A stretch of DNA of 64,000 bases from Gammaproteobacteria bacterium (GTDB lineage Bacteria; Pseudomonadota; Gammaproteobacteria; Burkholderiales; Rhodocyclaceae), in the NCBI GenBank assembly GCA_029289235.1, contig JARFTZ010000047.1, positions 1 through 64,000 on the forward strand, written 5' to 3'. How positions within the stretch are numbered: position 1 is the first letter of the stretch; every line of letters begins with the position of its first letter. Positions 37,676 through 49,680 of the stretch are shown in pieces. The position numbers and the translations under genes were made by a program. The notes under the pieces are model-generated. The model did not search any database, was not told the origin of the DNA, and saw nothing but the letters and a program-made list of their open reading frames with translations.

Positions 37676-38935
37676 TTATCCGTCAAGCCCGTAATGCAGG
37701 GCGATCGCCTCGAACTCGTGGCAGTGGGCCAGAAAAACGTCGGTGATCTCGGGGTCGAACTGCCGGTCGCGCTCGCCGGCGATGATCCGGCGGACCTCGG
37801 CGAAGGGCATGGCATCCTTGTAGACCCGCTTCGAGATCAACGCGTCGAAGACGTCGGCCACCGCCATCAGCCTTGCCGAAACGGGGATCGACTCCCCCGC
37901 CAGCTTGTCGGGGTAGCCGGTGCCGTCCCAGCGCTCGTGGTGCCAGCGCACGATTTCCTTGGCCTGGGCGAGGAAATCAGCGGAAGCATTGATGTCCTTT
38001 TCGGCCAGCGCGATGGCGTCGCAGCCGAGAGTCGTGTGGGTGCGCATGATCGCCCATTCCCCGGGGGTCAGCTTGCCCGGCTTGAGCAGGATGGCGTCGG
38101 GAATGCCGACCTTGCCGATGTCGTGGAGAGGCGCCGAACGTGCCAGCGTTTCGATGTATTTCGGTGTCAGCGAACGGGAAAAACGCGGCCGGTCGGCGAG
38201 ACGCATCGCCAGCAACTGCACATAGTTCTGCGTGCGCTGGATATGGTTGCCGGTCTCGTTGTCGCGGGTCTCCGCCAGATGGGCGAGCGCGCGAATGCTG
38301 ACGGCCTGGATCAGCTCGTTTTCCCGCATTCGCCGGTTGACTTCCGCTTCCAGCGCCTGGTTCTGGTCCTGCAGCCAGGAACGTGCGTGGCGAACCAGCA
38401 ACTGGCTGCGCACGCGGGCGAGGACGATCGAAGGACGAAACGGTTTGACGATGTAGTCGGCAATGCCGGCGGCGAAGGCGCGTTCCTCGTCCTCGTCGGT
38501 GTCCTTGGCGGTAAGAAAGATCACCGGAATGTCGCGTGTTTCCGGGTTGTTGCGCAGGTAGTAGAGGACTTCGTGGCCGTTCATGTCCTGCATCATGATG
38601 TCCAGCAGGATCAGGGCCGGCTTGGGTGCCTGGGCCGCCAGACGCAGCCCGGTGCCGCCGGAGTTCGCCACCTTGACGCGATAGCCGGCATCCTGCAGCA
38701 GGGAACCCAGTGCGCTGAGGTTTTCCGGCGAGTCGTCGACGATGAGGATGATCTCGTTGTCGGTCGAGCGGCGGCGCGGCGGGTTCGCGTGAGGATCGGG
38801 AACAATGACGTTCTCGCCGAGAATGAGCGACGACACGGTCGGGCGCGTATCCGTGAGCGGCATCGTCCGCGCACCGCTGCGCGGACGTTCTGCCGGTGGA
38901 GCGCCTTGATCGTTTCGCATCTGCGCCTCGCTCAC
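37676..38935 (-). CDS. Response regulator with HD-GYP phosphodiesterase output domain
   Basis: Receiver ILIVDDSPENLSAL (as IILIVDDSPENLSAL); HDIGKVGIPDAIL; HHERWDGTGYPDKLAGE. Confidence 0.94.
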   Translation of the reverse strand: MSEAQMRNDQGAPPAERPRSGARTMPLTDTRPTVSSLILGENVIVPDPHANPPRRRSTDNEIILIVDDSPENLSALGSLLQDAGYRVKVANSGGTGLRLAAQAPKPALILLDIMMQDMNGHEVLYYLRNNPETRDIPVIFLTAKDTDEDEERAFAAGIADYIVKPFRPSIVLARVRSQLLVRHARSWLQDQNQALEAEVNRRMRENELIQAVSIRALAHLAETRDNETGNHIQRTQNYVQLLAMRLADRPRFSRSLTPKYIETLARSAPLHDIGKVGIPDAILLKPGKLTPGEWAIMRTHTTLGCDAIALAEKDINASADFLAQAKEIVRWHHERWDGTGYPDKLAGESIPVSARLMAVADVFDALISKRVYKDAMPFAEVRRIIAGERDRQFDPEITDVFLAHCHEFEAIALHYGLDG

Positions 38936-38952: not shown

Positions 38953-39531
38953 TCAGGCGGCGGCCTCCGTCGCTGGCAGGGGCTCGCCGGTTTGTGCAAT
39001 GCCGGAGAGCATGGCGATTTCATCGATGGACAGCACCTTGCCGATGTTCAGGATGATGACGAACTTTCCGGCAACCTTGCCCATCCCGGAAATGAAGTCG
39101 GCGCGGATCTTCGCTCCGAACGAAGGCGGCGGCTCGATTTCGCCGGGCGGAATCTCGAGGACTTCCGAAACGGCGTCGACCATGATGCCGATGTCGCTAT
39201 GCGCTTCCTGATCGATGACTTCGAGAATGACGATGCAGGTTCGCCGGCCCACTGTGGTCGGCTTGCCGCCGAAGCGTGCGGCCAGGTCGATGACCGGGAC
39301 GACGGCGCCGCGCAGGTTGATCACGCCGCGAATGAACGCCGGCATCATCGGAATTTCGGTCAGGTGGCCGAATTCGATGATCTCCTTCACGTTCAGGATG
39401 CCGACGGCGAACATTTCCCCGGCGAGCGAGAAGGTGAGGTATTGGGCCGGTGCTTCGCTCGCCCTGGCGACGGCGGTGTTCGCCGTGGCCGCGGGAAGCG
39501 GGTTGCCCCGTGCGGGGGTGAGTTGTCCCAT
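38953..39531 (-). CDS. cheW: Chemotaxis coupling protein CheW
   Basis: YLTFSLAGEMFAVGILNVKEIIEF; IRGVINLRGAVVPVIDLAARF. Confidence 0.95.
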   Translation of the reverse strand: MGQLTPARGNPLPAATANTAVARASEAPAQYLTFSLAGEMFAVGILNVKEIIEFGHLTEIPMMPAFIRGVINLRGAVVPVIDLAARFGGKPTTVGRRTCIVILEVIDQEAHSDIGIMVDAVSEVLEIPPGEIEPPPSFGAKIRADFISGMGKVAGKFVIILNIGKVLSIDEIAMLSGIAQTGEPLPATEAAA

Positions 39532-39541
39532 GATCCGCCTC

Positions 39542-41173
39542 TCAGAAACGCTCGAAGTCGCCTTCGCTGACTTGCAGCGATCCCGCCGGCGTGGCCATCG
39601 CCAGGCGCGGCGAAGTGCTCCGCGCAGCCGCGCCGGAACCGGCCGGACGGCTTGCCGGCCGGCGGCTGGAGCCCTCGTCGAGGCGGAAGAAGGTCATGGT
39701 CTGCTGCAGCTGTTCCGCCTGCGCGCCGAGTTCCTCGGCGGTCGCCGCGAGTTCTTCGGACGCGGAAGCGTTCTGCTGGGTCGCCTGGTTGAGCTGGCCC
39801 ATCGCACTGTTGATCTGCGTCACGCCGGACGACTGCTCCGACGACGCGGCGGCGATTTCCTGCACCAGGTCGGATGTCTTGCGGATCGACGGGACGATCT
39901 CGGTGAGCAGTTCGCCGGCGCGTTCGGCCTGTTTGACCGACGAGTCGGCGAGGTCGCCGATTTCCTGGGCGGCGACCTGCGAGCGCTCCGCCAGCTTGCG
40001 CACCTCGGCGGCGACGACCGCGAAGCCCTTGCCGTGCTCGCCGGCGCGGGCCGCTTCGATCGCCGCGTTCAGCGCCAGCAGGTTGGTCTGGTAGGCAATG
40101 TCGTCGATGATGCCGATCTTGCCGGCGATGCTCTTCATGTCATCGACCGTACGGCTGACCGCGTCGCCGCCCTCGGCGGCTTCCTGGGCGGCCTTCGATG
40201 CCATGCCGTCGGTGACGCGGGCGTTCTCGGTGTTCTGGGCGATCGAGGCGGTCATCTGCTCCATCGACGAGGTGGTTTCCTCGACGGAAGCGGCCTGCTC
40301 GCTCGACGATTGCGACAGCGACTGGGCCGTTGCCGACACCTGGCCGGCGGCGTTGGTCAGGTTGTCCGCCGCGGTGCGCACTTCGCCGATGATCTGGGTG
40401 AGGCGGCCGATCATGTTCTGCATGGCGGTCATCAATTGCCCGACTTCGTCCTTGCTGTCGGCATCGAGGCGCACCGTCAGGTCGCCCCCCGCCAGGCGCT
40501 CGGCGGCTTCGACAGCAGTGCGGATCGGGCGGGTGATCGAGCGGGTGATCCACCAGGCAAAGGCAAGGGCCATGACGATCGCGGCGATCGCGATCGAGAG
40601 GATCAGGGTCTGGGCGCCCGCCGCCGTCTTGTCCGCCGTTTCGCCCGATTTGACCATCAGATCGGTCTGGAAATCGATGAGTTGCGAGACCGACTTGAGG
40701 TAATCGTCTTGCGCCTTGCGCATGTTTCCCAGCAGCAAAACAGTGGCTTCTTCCCGTCTGCCGGTATTCGTCAGCTCGATCAACTTGCCGAGTTCGGACA
40801 CATACGTCTTCCGGGTTTCGCCGACGCCCTGCAGGATGCGCCTGCCTTCGTCGGAGGTGATTGTCTTTTCGAGCTTCTCCATGCGCTCGGAAATGATCTT
40901 GCTGCTTGCCGGGATGCGACCCAGTTCGGCGCGGGCCGTTTCCGGCGTGGCGGCCAGGATCGCATTGCGGGTGATCCGCGCGACGACGTTGACCTCGTTG
41001 ATGATGTCGTTGGCCTGCACGGTTTTCGGGAACTTGTCGCGGACCAGGTCGTTGATCTCGCCGTTGAGTACCCCGAGGCGCTGGTAGGCGAGGGAGGAGA
41101 CCACGATCAGCAGCGTCAGGACGAGCCCGAAGCCGACGCCGAGGCGAACACCGATTTTCAGATTCTTGAACAT
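39542..41173 (-). CDS. Methyl-accepting chemotaxis protein, C-terminal tail DFERF
   Basis: N-terminal TM, 4HB-type sensor region, [30 protein letters not shown] signalling tip. Confidence 0.95.
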
Positions 41174-41176
41174 GAT

Positions 41177-43396
41177 CTACCTTTCCGTTGGACTTGCAAT
41201 TTGAATGTTGGTGGGGGTGTTGATGGAGGATGGCGGGAGCAGACGGCTTTCCTCAGCCTGCCGGACGATCCGGACGAGCGCCGCGACGTCGAGGATCAGC
41301 GCCACGTCGCCACTGCCCAGGATCGTCGAGCCGCTGATCCCGCGCAGGTTGGCGAACAGGCGGCCCAGCGGCTTGATCACGGTCTGGAATTCGCCCATCA
41401 GCTGGTCGACGACGATGCCGGCGCGTTGTCCGGCGAACTGCACCACGACGATGCTCTCGCGGGCCGGGGCCGGGCCGTCGATCTCGAACAGTTCGCGCAG
41501 GCGGATGAAAGGCAGCGCCTCGCCGCGCAGGTTGAGGAAGTTGCGCTCGCCGCCAAGATCCCGGTGTTCGATGCACTCGACGACCGAATCGAGCGGAATG
41601 ACGTAGGAGGCCTTGCCGATGCCGACCAGGAAGCCGTCGATGATGGCCAGGGTCAGCGGCAGACGGATGGTGAAGGTCGATCCGACGCCTTCCGTGGATG
41701 CAACGTCGACCGTGCCGCGCAGCGCCTGGATGTTGCGGCGCACGACGTCCATGCCGACGCCGCGGCCGGAGAGTTTCGAGACCTGGTCGGCGGTCGAGAA
41801 GCCGGGTTCGAAGATGAGGTTGATGATCTCGCTGTCCGACAGCGCGTCAGTTGGCTGGATCAGTTCACGCTCGACGGCCTTGGCGCGGATCTTCTCGCGG
41901 TTGAGCCCGCCACCGTCGTCGGAAACCTCGATGACGATGCTGCCCGAGTCATGGAAGGCGTTGAGCGAGACGCGGCCGCAGGCCGGCTTGCCGCAGGCCA
42001 GGCGCGTCTCGACCGGCTCGATGCCGTGGTCGAGCGAATTGCGCACCAGGTGCATCAGCGGATCGCCGATTTTCTCGACGACGCTTTTGTCGAGTTCCGT
42101 ATCGGCACCGCTGATCGACAGCTCGATTTCCTTGCCGAGATCCTTGGCGACGTCGCGCACCACGCGATGGAAACGGTTGAAGGTATCGCCGATCTGCACC
42201 ATGCGCAGTTGCAGCGCGGAATCACGAATGTTTTCGACGAGGCGCGAGAGCACCGACGTCGCTTCAATCAGGTCGCCGTTGCGGCTGCGGGCGGCCAGCA
42301 GGTTGGCCGAGGCGCCGGCGATGACCAGTTCGCCGATCAGGTCGATCAGGCTGTCCAGCTTGTCGGCGTGCACCCGTACCAGCTGGGCTTCGCGCGCCTT
42401 CTTCTCGGTGACCTGGCTCTGGCGGGTGACCGCGGCGTCGATGACTTCCTTGTGCACCACCTTGCTGTCGATGAGGATTTCGCCGAGTGGCGGTGCTTCT
42501 TCCGGGGCGGCCTCCGCTGCGTTTTGCTGCGCCAGCAGGCCGCGATCGACCTCGGCCTGCGTCAGCGCGCCGCAGCGCACCAGTATTTCGCCAAGGCGCA
42601 GGGTGTCTTCGGGCAGCTCGGCGATCAGCCGGAGGTAGTCGTCAAGTTTGCTCTGCGGCGGGAGGATGCGCAGGTCGCATTCGTCGCTGACGAAATCGAA
42701 GACGCGTTCGATGTCGGCCTTGCCGGCTTTGGTCTGCAGGCGAATCTCGAAGCCCAGGTAGCACGATTCCGGGTCCATCTCCGCTGCTTCGGGAAGCGCA
42801 TCGGCGATCGTTTCGATGCCGATGATTTCGCCGAGACCGCCGAGGAAACGGATGAACGAGAGCGGGTCGGTGCCGCCGCGCATGACGTTCGGCCCGAAGC
42901 GCACCGAAACGTGCCAAGCGTCGTTGCTGACGACGCCGCCACCCGTGCTTTCGACGCTGGCGTCGTCATCGTCGGCGACGGTCAGGCTGGCGCCGGCTGG
43001 CGTGTCGGCGTTGTCGAGAATCTGTTTCAGTCGTTCGGTCAGCGCGTCGCCGCGTTCGCTCAGGGCAGCGTCCGGTTCTGCCTGTTGCGCGGCGAGGACG
43101 TCCACCAGGCTGCCCATGTGGTCGCAGCACGCCAGCAAGATGTTGGCCAGTTCGCCGCTGACGGCAAGATCGCCGTTGCGCAGGGCGTCGAGGAGGTTTT
43201 CCACGCGGTGGGTGAAATGCTCGATGTAGGCGCATTCGATGACGCCGGCGCCGCCCTTGATCGTATGCGCGGCGCGGAAGATGGCGTTGAGGTTGTCGGT
43301 GTCGTCCGGCATCTGTTCGAGGCGGAGCAGGCCGGCTTCCATTTCCGCGAGCTGTTCGCGGCATTCCTGGATATACACGCTGGTCAGTTCGTCCAT
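41177..43396 (-). CDS. cheA: Chemotaxis histidine kinase CheA with an internal MshEN/GspE-N-like tandem repeat
   Basis: P1 AAHTIKGGAGVIE; LVRNSLDHGIEPVE; ISGRGVGMDVVRRNI-like G-box (LSGRGVGMDVVRRNIQAL); C-terminal CheW-like domain. Confidence 0.96.
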   Translation of the reverse strand: MDELTSVYIQECREQLAEMEAGLLRLEQMPDDTDNLNAIFRAAHTIKGGAGVIECAYIEHFTHRVENLLDALRNGDLAVSGELANILLACCDHMGSLVDVLAAQQAEPDAALSERGDALTERLKQILDNADTPAGASLTVADDDDASVESTGGGVVSNDAWHVSVRFGPNVMRGGTDPLSFIRFLGGLGEIIGIETIADALPEAAEMDPESCYLGFEIRLQTKAGKADIERVFDFVSDECDLRILPPQSKLDDYLRLIAELPEDTLRLGEILVRCGALTQAEVDRGLLAQQNAAEAAPEEAPPLGEILIDSKVVHKEVIDAAVTRQSQVTEKKAREAQLVRVHADKLDSLIDLIGELVIAGASANLLAARSRNGDLIEATSVLSRLVENIRDSALQLRMVQIGDTFNRFHRVVRDVAKDLGKEIELSISGADTELDKSVVEKIGDPLMHLVRNSLDHGIEPVETRLACGKPACGRVSLNAFHDSGSIVIEVSDDGGGLNREKIRAKAVERELIQPTDALSDSEIINLIFEPGFSTADQVSKLSGRGVGMDVVRRNIQALRGTVDVASTEGVGSTFTIRLPLTLAIIDGFLVGIGKASYVIPLDSVVECIEHRDLGGERNFLNLRGEALPFIRLRELFEIDGPAPARESIVVVQFAGQRAGIVVDQLMGEFQTVIKPLGRLFANLRGISGSTILGSGDVALILDVAALVRIVRQAEESRLLPPSSINTPTNIQIASPTER

Positions 43397-43406
43397 TGGG
43401 GTCTCC

Positions 43407-43712
43407 TCAGCAGGCTTCGGCGGCGGGGATGACCAGCGGGTCCCCGAGTTCGCCGGCGAGGTTGCAAAAGTCGATCAGCGAGCGCACCGCCTGGCTGTGG
43501 GCAACGATGACCGCACGTTTGCCGGCGCGTTGTGCTTCCTTTTTCAGCAGCAGAAGCAACTGCAAGCCGGCGGTGTCGATCTCGTTGACCTGCGACAGGT
43601 CGAGTTCGAGTTCATCGCTCGCGGCGAGCGCGGCGAGCAGCGTCTGCTTCAGCTCCAGCGCGTGGTAGATGGTCAGGTCCTCGGCGAGGGGCAGGGTTTT
43701 GCTGGCTGGCAT
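43407..43712 (-). CDS. STAS-domain protein (anti-sigma-factor-antagonist-like)
   Basis: 101 aa; LELDLSQVNEIDTAGLQLLLLLKKEAQ STAS core. Confidence 0.88.
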   Translation of the reverse strand: MPASKTLPLAEDLTIYHALELKQTLLAALAASDELELDLSQVNEIDTAGLQLLLLLKKEAQRAGKRAVIVAHSQAVRSLIDFCNLAGELGDPLVIPAAEAC

Positions 43713-43721
43713 GACGGAGCC

Positions 43722-44231
43722 TCAGAAAAGTTCGACGCGCGGCGAGTTCAGGGCGCCTGCATCGCTCGCGGCGGCGGATGCGTGGATCGCCCGTTGCCGT
43801 TCGGTAACGTAGCTGCCGTGCAGTTGCTGCAAGCGTTCATCGCCACTCAGCAGGTTTTTCGGCGGTGTTCCGGTCCGAAGCAGTTCGGCCAGGTGGGCGC
43901 TGTGTTGTCCGAGCATCTGCAGTGCAGTCATGACGCTGCCGATCTGCTGGTGCAGCACGTCCTGGAACTGCAGCCGCGCGAGTGCGTCCCCCAGTTTGTC
44001 GGTCACCCGCTGGAAAACGTCTGCCGGGTGGCCTGGCATCTCGGGCACGATGTCGGCGAGGGAGTTATCGACGGCAATCAGGTCGTTGGTCAGCGCGATG
44101 ACCGCTTTTTCCCCCGTTTCAACGCTGTCCTGCAGTTGCCGGCAGAGGATCTCAACGAGATGGCCTGCTTCCTGGAGTTCTGTGGCGACCTGCCGGGCGG
44201 CGTCCGGGGCTGAGGGTGGGATTGGCACCAT
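43722..44231 (-). CDS. CheZ-like chemotaxis protein (putative CheY-P phosphatase)
   Basis: Helical 169-aa protein with ARLQFQDVLHQQIGSV (DxxxQ, compare CheZ QDLTGQ) immediately downstream of cheY. Confidence 0.6.
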   Translation of the reverse strand: MVPIPPSAPDAARQVATELQEAGHLVEILCRQLQDSVETGEKAVIALTNDLIAVDNSLADIVPEMPGHPADVFQRVTDKLGDALARLQFQDVLHQQIGSVMTALQMLGQHSAHLAELLRTGTPPKNLLSGDERLQQLHGSYVTERQRAIHASAAASDAGALNSPRVELF

Positions 44232-44739: not shown

Positions 44740-46713
<1,974 letters not shown>

Positions 46714-46717
<4 letters not shown>

Positions 46718-47523
46718 GGCTTGCGGTAGATCGTCGGGCGCACGGTGATCAGCCGGTCGGTGATGCCGTTGAGGGTTTCCGAATGGCCGATGATCAGATG
46801 GCCGCCCGGTCTCAGGCGGGGCAGCAGGTTGTGCACGACACGGGCCTTGGTCGGCGGGTCGAAGTAGATCATCACGTTGCGCAGGAAGACGACATCGAAG
46901 TCACCGATGACCGTGTCGACCGGCTGCATCAGGTTGAGCTGGAAAAAACGGGTGCGCTGGCGCAGCTCCGGTGCGATCAGGAAGGTTCCGGCCTGCGAGC
47001 GCACGCCTTTCAGGCAGTACTTGCGCATGTAGTCGGGCGGGATGCCCTCGGTCCGCGCCAGTCCGTAATGCCCGGTCACGGCGCGCGCCAGCACGCGGGT
47101 GCAGATGTCCGAACCGACGATTTCCCAGGGCGCGTCGCCGAGCGTGTCGGCTAGCAGCATGGCGATCGAGTAGGCCTCCTCGCCGCTCGAGCTGGCGGCG
47201 CTCCACACGCGCAAGGGGGCGCCGTTGCGTCGGCGGGGGACGACCTCTGCGCGCAGGAACTCGAAATGGTTCGGTTCCCGGAAGAAATAGGTCTCGTTGG
47301 TCGTCAGCAGGTCGACCATGACCTGGACCTCGTTCGGGTGGTCGCCGGTGGCGAGCATCCGGTAGTAGCTGGCGAAGCTCGGCAGCTGGAAGTGACGCAG
47401 CCGTTTGCCGAGCCGGCCGACGAGCAAGTCCTTCTTGGTGTCGTTCAGGCTGATGCCGGCGAGCTTGTAGATCAGCCGCTGGAAGAGGGCGAATTCCTGA
47501 TCGGTGATGCGGGCGTCGCTCAT
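46714..47523 (-). CDS. cheR: Chemoreceptor methyltransferase CheR
   Basis: LTTNETYFFREPNHFEFL; VWSAASSSGEEAYSIAMLL; VFLRNVMIYFD. Confidence 0.96.
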
Positions 47524-48116
47524 CAGAACAGCTCGATCTTCTTGTCGGACGCCTGCGGCGTGCGGCGCAGCGTTTCGGCGTAGGCTCGCTCCTCGCGGGC
47601 GATGACCTCAGCGGTGGCCATGTTGGTCACCATGCGCTTGCAGAAGGCTTCGCCGTTGGTCGGCAGGAAGATGATCTTGCGCGACCACGGGCCGAGAAAA
47701 TCGGAGGAAACCAGCGGGATCCCCTCGCGTTGCAGCCACTCCTTGGCGAATCCGGCGTTGCGCAGGCCGATGCTCAGCGAGCCTTCGCCGGCGTCGATGA
47801 TCGTGCCGCCGCCGAAGGCCTTGGCTTGAAGCCGGACCTTCTTGGCCCCCTTGCCGAGCAGGGCGTTGAGCAGTGCCTCCATGGCGAAGTCGCCGGAGAG
47901 CAGCGAGTCGACGTCGCCGTTCCGGCTTCGCCCCATGTCCGGCAGCATGAAGTGATTCATGCCGCCGATCTTCAGCAGCGGATCGTAAAGGCAGACGGCG
48001 ACGCAGGAGCCCAGCAAGGTCGCCAGCGGTTGCCGCGTATCGACTGCCCAGGCGCCCGGCTGGACGTTCCTCGCCAGTCGTTCAAGTTCTCGCGGAGGAA
48101 GACCGGCATACTCCAA
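47523..48116 (-). CDS. cheD: CheD chemoreceptor glutamine deamidase, copy 2
   Basis: ATLLGSCVAVCLYDPLLKIGGMNHFMLP (Thr/Cys/His); FGGGTII; C-terminus KKIELF. Confidence 0.9.
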   Translation of the reverse strand: MEYAGLPPRELERLARNVQPGAWAVDTRQPLATLLGSCVAVCLYDPLLKIGGMNHFMLPDMGRSRNGDVDSLLSGDFAMEALLNALLGKGAKKVRLQAKAFGGGTIIDAGEGSLSIGLRNAGFAKEWLQREGIPLVSSDFLGPWSRKIIFLPTNGEAFCKRMVTNMATAEVIAREERAYAETLRRTPQASDKKIELF

Positions 48117-48134: not shown

Positions 48135-49241
48135 TCAGCAACTGCGCAACTGTTCGAGGCGGTCGTTCAGGCGCTGCAGGGTTTCCTGCGTGTGCAAGCC
48201 GCGGTTGAGCAGTTCGGCCATGCGCGCCATGAAGTCGCTGACCATGTTCTGCAGGAAGCGTTCCTGGTTGTCGGTCAGTCCCAGCTTGTAGAACGAGTTG
48301 AGCAGGGTGTCCTGCAATGCGTTGATCAGCAGGGTGCTGTCGGCGGCGTTGCGCTGGTGCGCGTCGCGAAGCTCGCGCAGGGTGTTGTTGACACTGGTCA
48401 GCGCGGACTGGATGCCTTGTTCGTCCTGCATGGCCTTGAGACGCGAATCGACCCCCTGCGCGGCGACGGAGAGATGGTCGCGGAGCCGGCCGCAGTAGTC
48501 CGGGTCTTCCAGCGGCAGGTTGTTGATCATCAGCGTGACGCGCTCGAAGTTGTGCACGCTGCGCCGGCTGAACTCGAAGATCCGTCCCTGTTTGCGCACG
48601 TGCTCGATGATCGCGACTTCCAGCGGCAGATCGACGCCGGCAGCGCTGACGGTCAGTGCCTGGTCGCCGGCGCGCGTCTGGACGACGCCATCCAGGCGGT
48701 AGCGGCGCAACAATTCCAGCAGTTCGTCGGCGATTTCGCGCTGGCTGTCCATGGCGATCAGTTTGCTCATGAACTGCAGCAGGATGCCGGTTTCGTCCAT
48801 GCTGGCCATCACCAGCGAAGAAAGCTGTTCCGCCTCGCGTACCTGTTCGGCGAGTGAGCGCTGGCTGAGGACGATGTTTTGCGCCACCTTCAGCTTGCGC
48901 AACAATTCCTCAGGCTCGAACGGCTTGACGATGAAGTCCTCCCCGCCGGCGTCATAGCCCCGGATACGTTCCTCGATCGTGTCGTGCGCCGAGACGAAAA
49001 TCACTGGCGTCTGGCGATGCTCGGGCTTTGTCTTGATGTTCCGGCAGAGGGTGAAACCATCCATGCCTGGCAGGCTGACGTCGAGGAAAAACAGGTCGGG
49101 CCGGATCGAATCCATCGCCTCCCAGCATGCTTCTGCGCTGTCGAAGGTGCGGATGTGGCAATCCGGCTCGAGGATGGTGGTGATGATCTCGAGAACAAGC
49201 GGGTCATCGTCGACGACGAATACCCTGAAAGATTCCCTCAT
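48135..49241 (-). CDS. Response regulator with C-terminal uncharacterised, possibly GAF-like, helical region
   Basis: Receiver VFVVDDDPLVLEII, LFFLDVSLPGMDGFTL, FVSAHD, FIVKPF; MRESFR start at 49241. Confidence 0.88.
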   Translation of the reverse strand: MRESFRVFVVDDDPLVLEIITTILEPDCHIRTFDSAEACWEAMDSIRPDLFFLDVSLPGMDGFTLCRNIKTKPEHRQTPVIFVSAHDTIEERIRGYDAGGEDFIVKPFEPEELLRKLKVAQNIVLSQRSLAEQVREAEQLSSLVMASMDETGILLQFMSKLIAMDSQREIADELLELLRRYRLDGVVQTRAGDQALTVSAAGVDLPLEVAIIEHVRKQGRIFEFSRRSVHNFERVTLMINNLPLEDPDYCGRLRDHLSVAAQGVDSRLKAMQDEQGIQSALTSVNNTLRELRDAHQRNAADSTLLINALQDTLLNSFYKLGLTDNQERFLQNMVSDFMARMAELLNRGLHTQETLQRLNDRLEQLRSC

Positions 49242-49287
49242 GATGGTTTCGGCTCCCGGTTCGATGGTGATTCGGCGTGGTCGATTG

Positions 49288-49680
49288 TCAGCCGGCGGAA
49301 ACCGCCAGCGCACTGGCGATGTCCTGGCACATTTCGGTGGTCGTGCGTTCGAGTTCCTCCAGCCAGAGGGCCGTCGGTTCGTGATTGCGCAGGCTCACTT
49401 CGAGCGACAGGGCGATCGAGTGGAGCTCGGACATGCCCAGCATGCCGACGCGTCCCTTCAGCGAATGAACCAGGCCGATGGCCGTGTCTCGCGTTCCGTG
49501 CGCAATCGCCTCGCGGATCTGGGCCGTTGCCGCGGGTCCGTGCGTGATGAATTCGGCCAGCCAGTGCTGGTAGCGGTTTGCATCTCCGGCGAAACGGGCC
49601 AGGGCCTCCTTCGTATGAAGCCCGCGAATCGCCAGCAGTGGATTCCCGGGTTCGCTTGCTCCCTCGTGTTGTACACCCAT
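49288..49680 (-). CDS. Stand-alone Hpt-domain protein
   Basis: 130 aa; IGLVHSLKGRVGMLGMSELHSIALSLEVSL phosphotransfer motif. Confidence 0.85.
   Translation of the reverse strand: MGVQHEGASEPGNPLLAIRGLHTKEALARFAGDANRYQHWLAEFITHGPAATAQIREAIAHGTRDTAIGLVHSLKGRVGMLGMSELHSIALSLEVSLRNHEPTALWLEELERTTTEMCQDIASALAVSAG

Follow-up and report, generated by a model that had tools for sequence, protein, structure and literature searches.

An MshEN_N-type module beside the dimerisation domain in a clade of CheA kinases, a proposed site for direct control by c-di-GMP

Based on profile comparisons, structure prediction and phylogeny, we describe here a CheA of 739 aa that carries an extra module, encoded on the minus strand at 41177..43396 of the window (the whole stretch of 64,000 nucleotides that was analysed). 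Residues ~262-338 of this protein (42383..42613, minus strand) form, according to profiles and predicted fold, a four-helix module of the MshEN_N type, located after a P2-like domain and before the P3 dimerisation domain; the homology of these residues to MshEN_N, a domain by which pilus motors bind c-di-GMP, is nearly certain. The CheAs that harbor the module constitute a single clade in a tree of their catalytic cores. We tentatively propose that this proteobacterial clade possesses a ligand-input domain of its own, in which c-di-GMP bound to the MshEN_N domain beside P3 would gate the kinase directly, although we put this complete scheme slightly below an even chance. If it is true, the kinases of the clade integrate receptor and second-messenger signals, through a domain that would have gone largely unnoticed because the Pfam MshEN model omits the motif. 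The MshEN-CheA fusion as such was already known; what is new is the clade-wide pattern, the reason why Pfam misses the module, and the residue-level case for a ligand site.

The module and its kinship with MshEN_N

The core domains of CheA are all recognized by Pfam on the minus strand: P1 (Hpt, residues 3-93, 43118..43390, E 1.5e-15), P3 (H-kinase_dim, residues 338-396, 42209..42385, E 1.3e-10), the P4 kinase domain (HATPase_c, residues 445-582, 41651..42064) and the CheW-like P5 domain (CheW, residues 588-709, 41270..41635). Residues ~160-247 (42656..42919, minus strand) have no Pfam match, and the alternating order of strands and helices in the full-length model suggests a P2-like domain. 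A preliminary description of this DNA had placed two units of 24 residues at 42415-42605, between the P1 and kinase regions. This placement is correct to within a few bases: Motif I (RLGEILVRCGALTQAEVDRGLLAQ, residues 267-290, 42527..42598) and Motif II (PLGEILIDSKVVHKEVIDAAVTRQ, residues 303-326, 42419..42490) are both in frame on the minus strand, span 42419-42598 together, and lie between the P2-like domain and P3. The linker, previously counted as 13 residues, has 12 (QNAAEAAPEEAP, 42491..42526, minus strand). cheA and the MCP gene are overlapped in antisense by a plus-strand open frame of 1405 aa (39215-43432), most likely artefactual and due to the coding bias that comes with high G+C.

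None of 20,000 shuffles of the same protein reproduces the tandem pattern, and both units are retained in all of the 80 CheA relatives fetched. The alignment referred to as A1 (80 rows) combines the window region with the corresponding part of 79 CheA relatives, in sequences that go down to 36% identity with the window CheA. Among its fully conserved columns are Gly3 and Gln24 in each motif (80/80 rows), whereas residues 22 and 23 of motif I, next to the invariant Gln24, vary freely. Unit II is less canonical than the pattern given in the preliminary description would suggest, with Pro303 at position 1 and Lys312 at position 10. The spacer of 12 residues also departs from the canonical 5. However, spacer length varies widely across the family, being 7 to 28 residues in most members and 52 in one (three values of 3 are probably mis-anchored), and is exactly 5 in two divergent CheAs (L125 and L128); the longer linker is therefore no serious objection to MshEN kinship.

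This kinship, already suspected in the preliminary description, is borne out by sequence profiles, by an NCBIfam c-di-GMP motif model and by fold comparison. Searched against the PDB, the A1 profile matched only MshEN-type ATPases: PilF (E 9.3e-13), PilB (1.6e-7 and 2.7e-6) and MshE (7.3e-5). Conversely, a profile of MshEN_N built from a hand-cut alignment of 16 ATPase domains had a single match, CheA (E 5.6e-5), among the 516 open frames in all six reading frames of the window; it also recovered every one of 81 CheAs and none of the 162 decoys made by reversal or shuffling. The profile-profile comparison of CheA with MshEN_N by hhalign gave a probability of 97.9 (E 4.3e-13), whereas no control among 50 column-shuffled profiles exceeded a probability of 29. 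The homology to known MshEN_N domains is significant in these comparisons. All 80 rows of A1 are matched by the NCBIfam model NF053729 (c-di-GMP_motif; cyclic di-GMP-binding, MshE-related). The window CheA, where the match begins at residue 267, scores 34.7 bits (E 1.1e-8), under the curated cut-off of 38, and all seven relatives examined singly score above it, at 42-51 bits.

Structure prediction points in the same direction. An AlphaFold2 model of residues 252-341, computed with 80 sequences, has a pLDDT of 87.6 and returns an MshEN four-helix bundle containing the two 24-residue motifs, with the helices in MshEN order (17-23, 29-45, 53-59 and 65-89 in fragment numbering, preceded by a short helix). 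The best eight Foldseek matches to this model in the PDB are all c-di-GMP-bound PilF GSPII-B and MshE (probability 0.94-1.00, rmsd 1.3-2.1 over 56-65 columns); their E-values of 0.3-1.1 are not significant alone, which we put down to the domain being small, and matches outside the MshEN/PilB group have a probability of at most 0.11. In the model of the whole protein, the module's final helix (316-338) is separated by five residues from the first helix of P3 (344-371), but the pTM of that model is 0.43 and the relative placement of its domains is unreliable.

Pfam is silent on the module: PF05157 (MshEN) has no match in the window CheA and its relatives with hmmscan at E up to 10. Such a search had been put forward as a refuting test and its outcome is negative, yet it is the wrong test, since what PF05157 models lies downstream of the motif. 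In bona fide MshEN ATPases, taken from the genome of the window and from others (L001, L002, L003, L084-L111), the PF05157 match starts immediately behind the tandem motif. The CheA module does not have the C-terminal MshEN subdomain, and is missed by the Pfam model because this model begins downstream of the motif. For the same reason, counts of MshEN c-di-GMP receptors based on Pfam do not test the motif, and searches relying on the Pfam MshEN model have a blind spot in which this module is overlooked. In 64 of the 80 A1 sequences (for example L070 and L075) there is a weak DUF4388 match, and DUF4388 was considered as a name for the module; it was rejected, as the four matches examined were all below its cut-off, and these matches probably reflect a shared LG...Q helical hairpin motif. 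Together with the missing PF05157 match, they are what could speak for a mere chance likeness to MshEN, either of two unrelated helical hairpins or of an element of the DUF4388 type, but this idea is extremely improbable given the concordant profile, NCBIfam and fold tests and the position of PF05157 in known MshEN proteins.

Predicted ligand site and possible control of the kinase

In the MshEN_N domain of Vibrio cholerae MshE (PDB 5HTL), as described by Wang et al. 2016 (PMC5013675), Gly3 and residue 4 form backbone hydrogen bonds to guanine, Gln24 touches ribose and phosphate, positions 2, 17 and 21 provide hydrophobic stacks, and Arg1 covers guanine. The CheA module has in common with this domain the two 24-residue motifs, the predicted four-helix bundle, Gly3 and Gln24 in both motifs (G269 and Q290, G305 and Q326), Arg1 of motif I (R267), and a hydrophobic residue (Leu, Val or Ile) at each of positions 2, 17 and 21 (L268, V283 and L287 in motif I; L304, I319 and V323 in motif II), three of these six being other than Leu. 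MshE has a spacer of 5 residues, an Arg at position 1 in both motifs and a basic patch before motif I, and its MshEN_N is followed by MshEN_C and the ATPase, whereas the stretch before motif I in CheA (ELPED) is acidic. The strict consensus of Arg (or Lys/Leu) at position 1 fits R267 but not P303, and the turn glycine of position 10 is found in motif I (G276) but replaced in motif II (K312).

P303 is the main deviation of the predicted site. A proline at this very place is also present in a binder, however: the GSPII-C domain of Thermus thermophilus PilF, which is the best PDB match of the CheA family, has P335 at position 1 of its motif II and binds c-di-GMP at ~324 nM (PMC11731258). It is for this reason that we claim homology and not membership of the strict consensus. 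GSPII-C differs from the CheA module in belonging to a traffic ATPase, in its 7-residue spacer, and in a further motif and a C-terminal subdomain. As to the latter, isolated MshEN_N of MshE without its C-terminal subdomain binds c-di-GMP with a KD of 0.35 uM (PMC5013675).

The data show the homology, the predicted fold, the conservation of the positions that contact the ligand and the place of the module within CheA; from these we infer binding of c-di-GMP, its affinity and an effect on the kinase. Binding by the CheA module is probable; that binding is accompanied by some effect on CheA is somewhat less so, though still favoured, and direct control of the kinase by c-di-GMP is a likely reading. 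P303, K312, the acidic stretch ahead of motif I, the longer spacer and the NF053729 score under the cut-off speak against it. A single c-di-GMP per module would sit between the two hairpins, motifs I and II each holding one guanine. The ligand would make the segment that links the P1/P2 arm to P3 stiffer or set it at another angle, which would in turn change the ease with which P1 is phosphorylated, and hence autophosphorylation. Direct switching of a histidine kinase by c-di-GMP has a precedent in CckA, as cited in PMC12564702, and such direct control is what CckA would share with the CheA proposed here. Regarding the direction of the effect, our guess is that kinase output would be lower at high c-di-GMP. 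CckA is not known to have an MshEN module and is not a CheA, and its c-di-GMP binding site is a different one.

The leading rival is a homologous MshEN_N bundle that does not bind the nucleotide and is kept between P2 and P3 as a structural joint or as a surface for docking. There is a known case of such a loss, the domain of XpsE (PMC5013675), and the non-consensus residues of motif II at positions 1 and 10, as well as the absence of a key residue in some divergent members of the clade, would suit this explanation. We nevertheless consider it rather unlikely, because none of the XpsE-type losses (G3, L21, Q24) is found in the window CheA, and because Gly3 and Gln24 are held constant across the 80 sequences of A1 while the two residues before Gln24 in motif I drift. 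Less likely still is a module that binds c-di-GMP for localisation or partner recruitment, or that binds another nucleotide, with no gating of the kinase. The MshEN_N domain of MshE does bind cGAMP weakly (PMC5013675), but the CheA module directly precedes P3 in the chain, a place suited to changing kinase output, which argues against this rival.

Distribution of the module and relation to known systems

The module was matched in 9 of 114 genomes of the class, including that of the window, always in frames of ~740-785 aa. CheA-type dimerisation domains occur in 59 of 108 genomes of a comparable sample of the class, so that roughly one in seven CheA-bearing genomes would have this form of CheA, the two samples being similar but not identical. 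In the genome of the window, which has four H-kinase_dim matches (one of them weak), the A1 model matches this CheA only. The MshEN_N profile matched 24 of the 24 CheAs of the positive set and none of 28 other CheAs of the class (no match, or E >0.5). In a maximum-likelihood tree of the catalytic core, with the module excluded from the alignment, the 24 MshEN-CheAs fall on one side of a 100/100 branch. By sequence, CheAs with the module group as one clade; the positives were retrieved by means of P0001 and the A1 model, so that a fusion which arose independently in a more distant CheA may have escaped notice. Of 12 members that are more divergent, three (L124, L125 and L128) each lack one key ligand-contacting residue. 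Binding may therefore not be universal in the clade, and these three are natural candidates for non-binding controls, as judged from their sequences. Two MshEN ATPases of the same genome constitute a natural comparison pair: one (L002, contig C34) retains most of the tandem motif, and the other (L001, contig C6) is without Gly3 and other key positions.

The co-occurrence of MshEN with CheA, HD-GYP, REC and CheX was noted by Wang et al. 2016 (PMC5013675). In the available text of that paper the MshEN-CheA fusions take up one clause and a supplementary table, may differ from the present clade, and come with no described binding test of a CheA. Our search of the open-access literature found no reported test of c-di-GMP binding by an MshEN-CheA. 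In a 2023 survey of CheA architectures (PMC10782961), CheA is presented as devoid of a sensor domain; a search of this survey for the terms di-GMP, T2SSE and MshEN gave no hit. An MshEN-type tandem in a non-ATPase, as in CheA, is also known from the NfrB-type glycosyltransferases, with a different output (PMC8669469), and NCBIfam NfrB models weakly match the same stretch of CheA. If the clade does bind c-di-GMP, the main messenger of the motile-to-sessile transition would feed straight into CheA and bypass adaptors such as MapZ. This idea lends itself to direct tests, as the module is small, the predicted contact residues are known and a Q-to-E precedent exists in PilF.

Gene neighborhood

The minus-strand gene run of cheA encodes CheD, CheR, a second CheD, CheB, an HDOD protein, CheY, a CheZ-like protein, STAS, CheA, MCP, CheW, a REC-HD-GYP protein and a hybrid kinase. 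The REC-HD-GYP protein (37676..38935, minus strand; Pfam Response_reg and HD_5) is, on its domains, a possible c-di-GMP phosphodiesterase. Its presence in the run had been taken as support for a c-di-GMP link; the neighbor is indeed there, but it is no constant partner of this CheA type and we set it aside as evidence. A clear REC-HD-GYP after cheW was found in only four of the relatives' loci (L005, L008, L019 and L078). In the others the REC-HD-GYP query matched receiver domains only, with many flanks too short to judge, and some relatives have CheD/CheR after cheW instead. The genome encodes 44 GGDEF domains, and c-di-GMP is thus very probably made.

Several other genes of the run deserve mention. 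The response regulator encoded at 48135-49313 (minus strand) has, beyond its receiver domain, a long C-terminal part of ~250 aa in which Pfam has no match. The 169-aa protein encoded between CheY and STAS (43722-44231, minus strand) has no match in Pfam or NCBIfam and contains a CheZ-like FQDVLHQQ stretch; it may be a divergent CheZ phosphatase. Two different CheD genes (46196-46717 and 47523-48116, minus strand) flank cheR, and the CheB encoded near them (45576-46199) is of a form devoid of a receiver domain.
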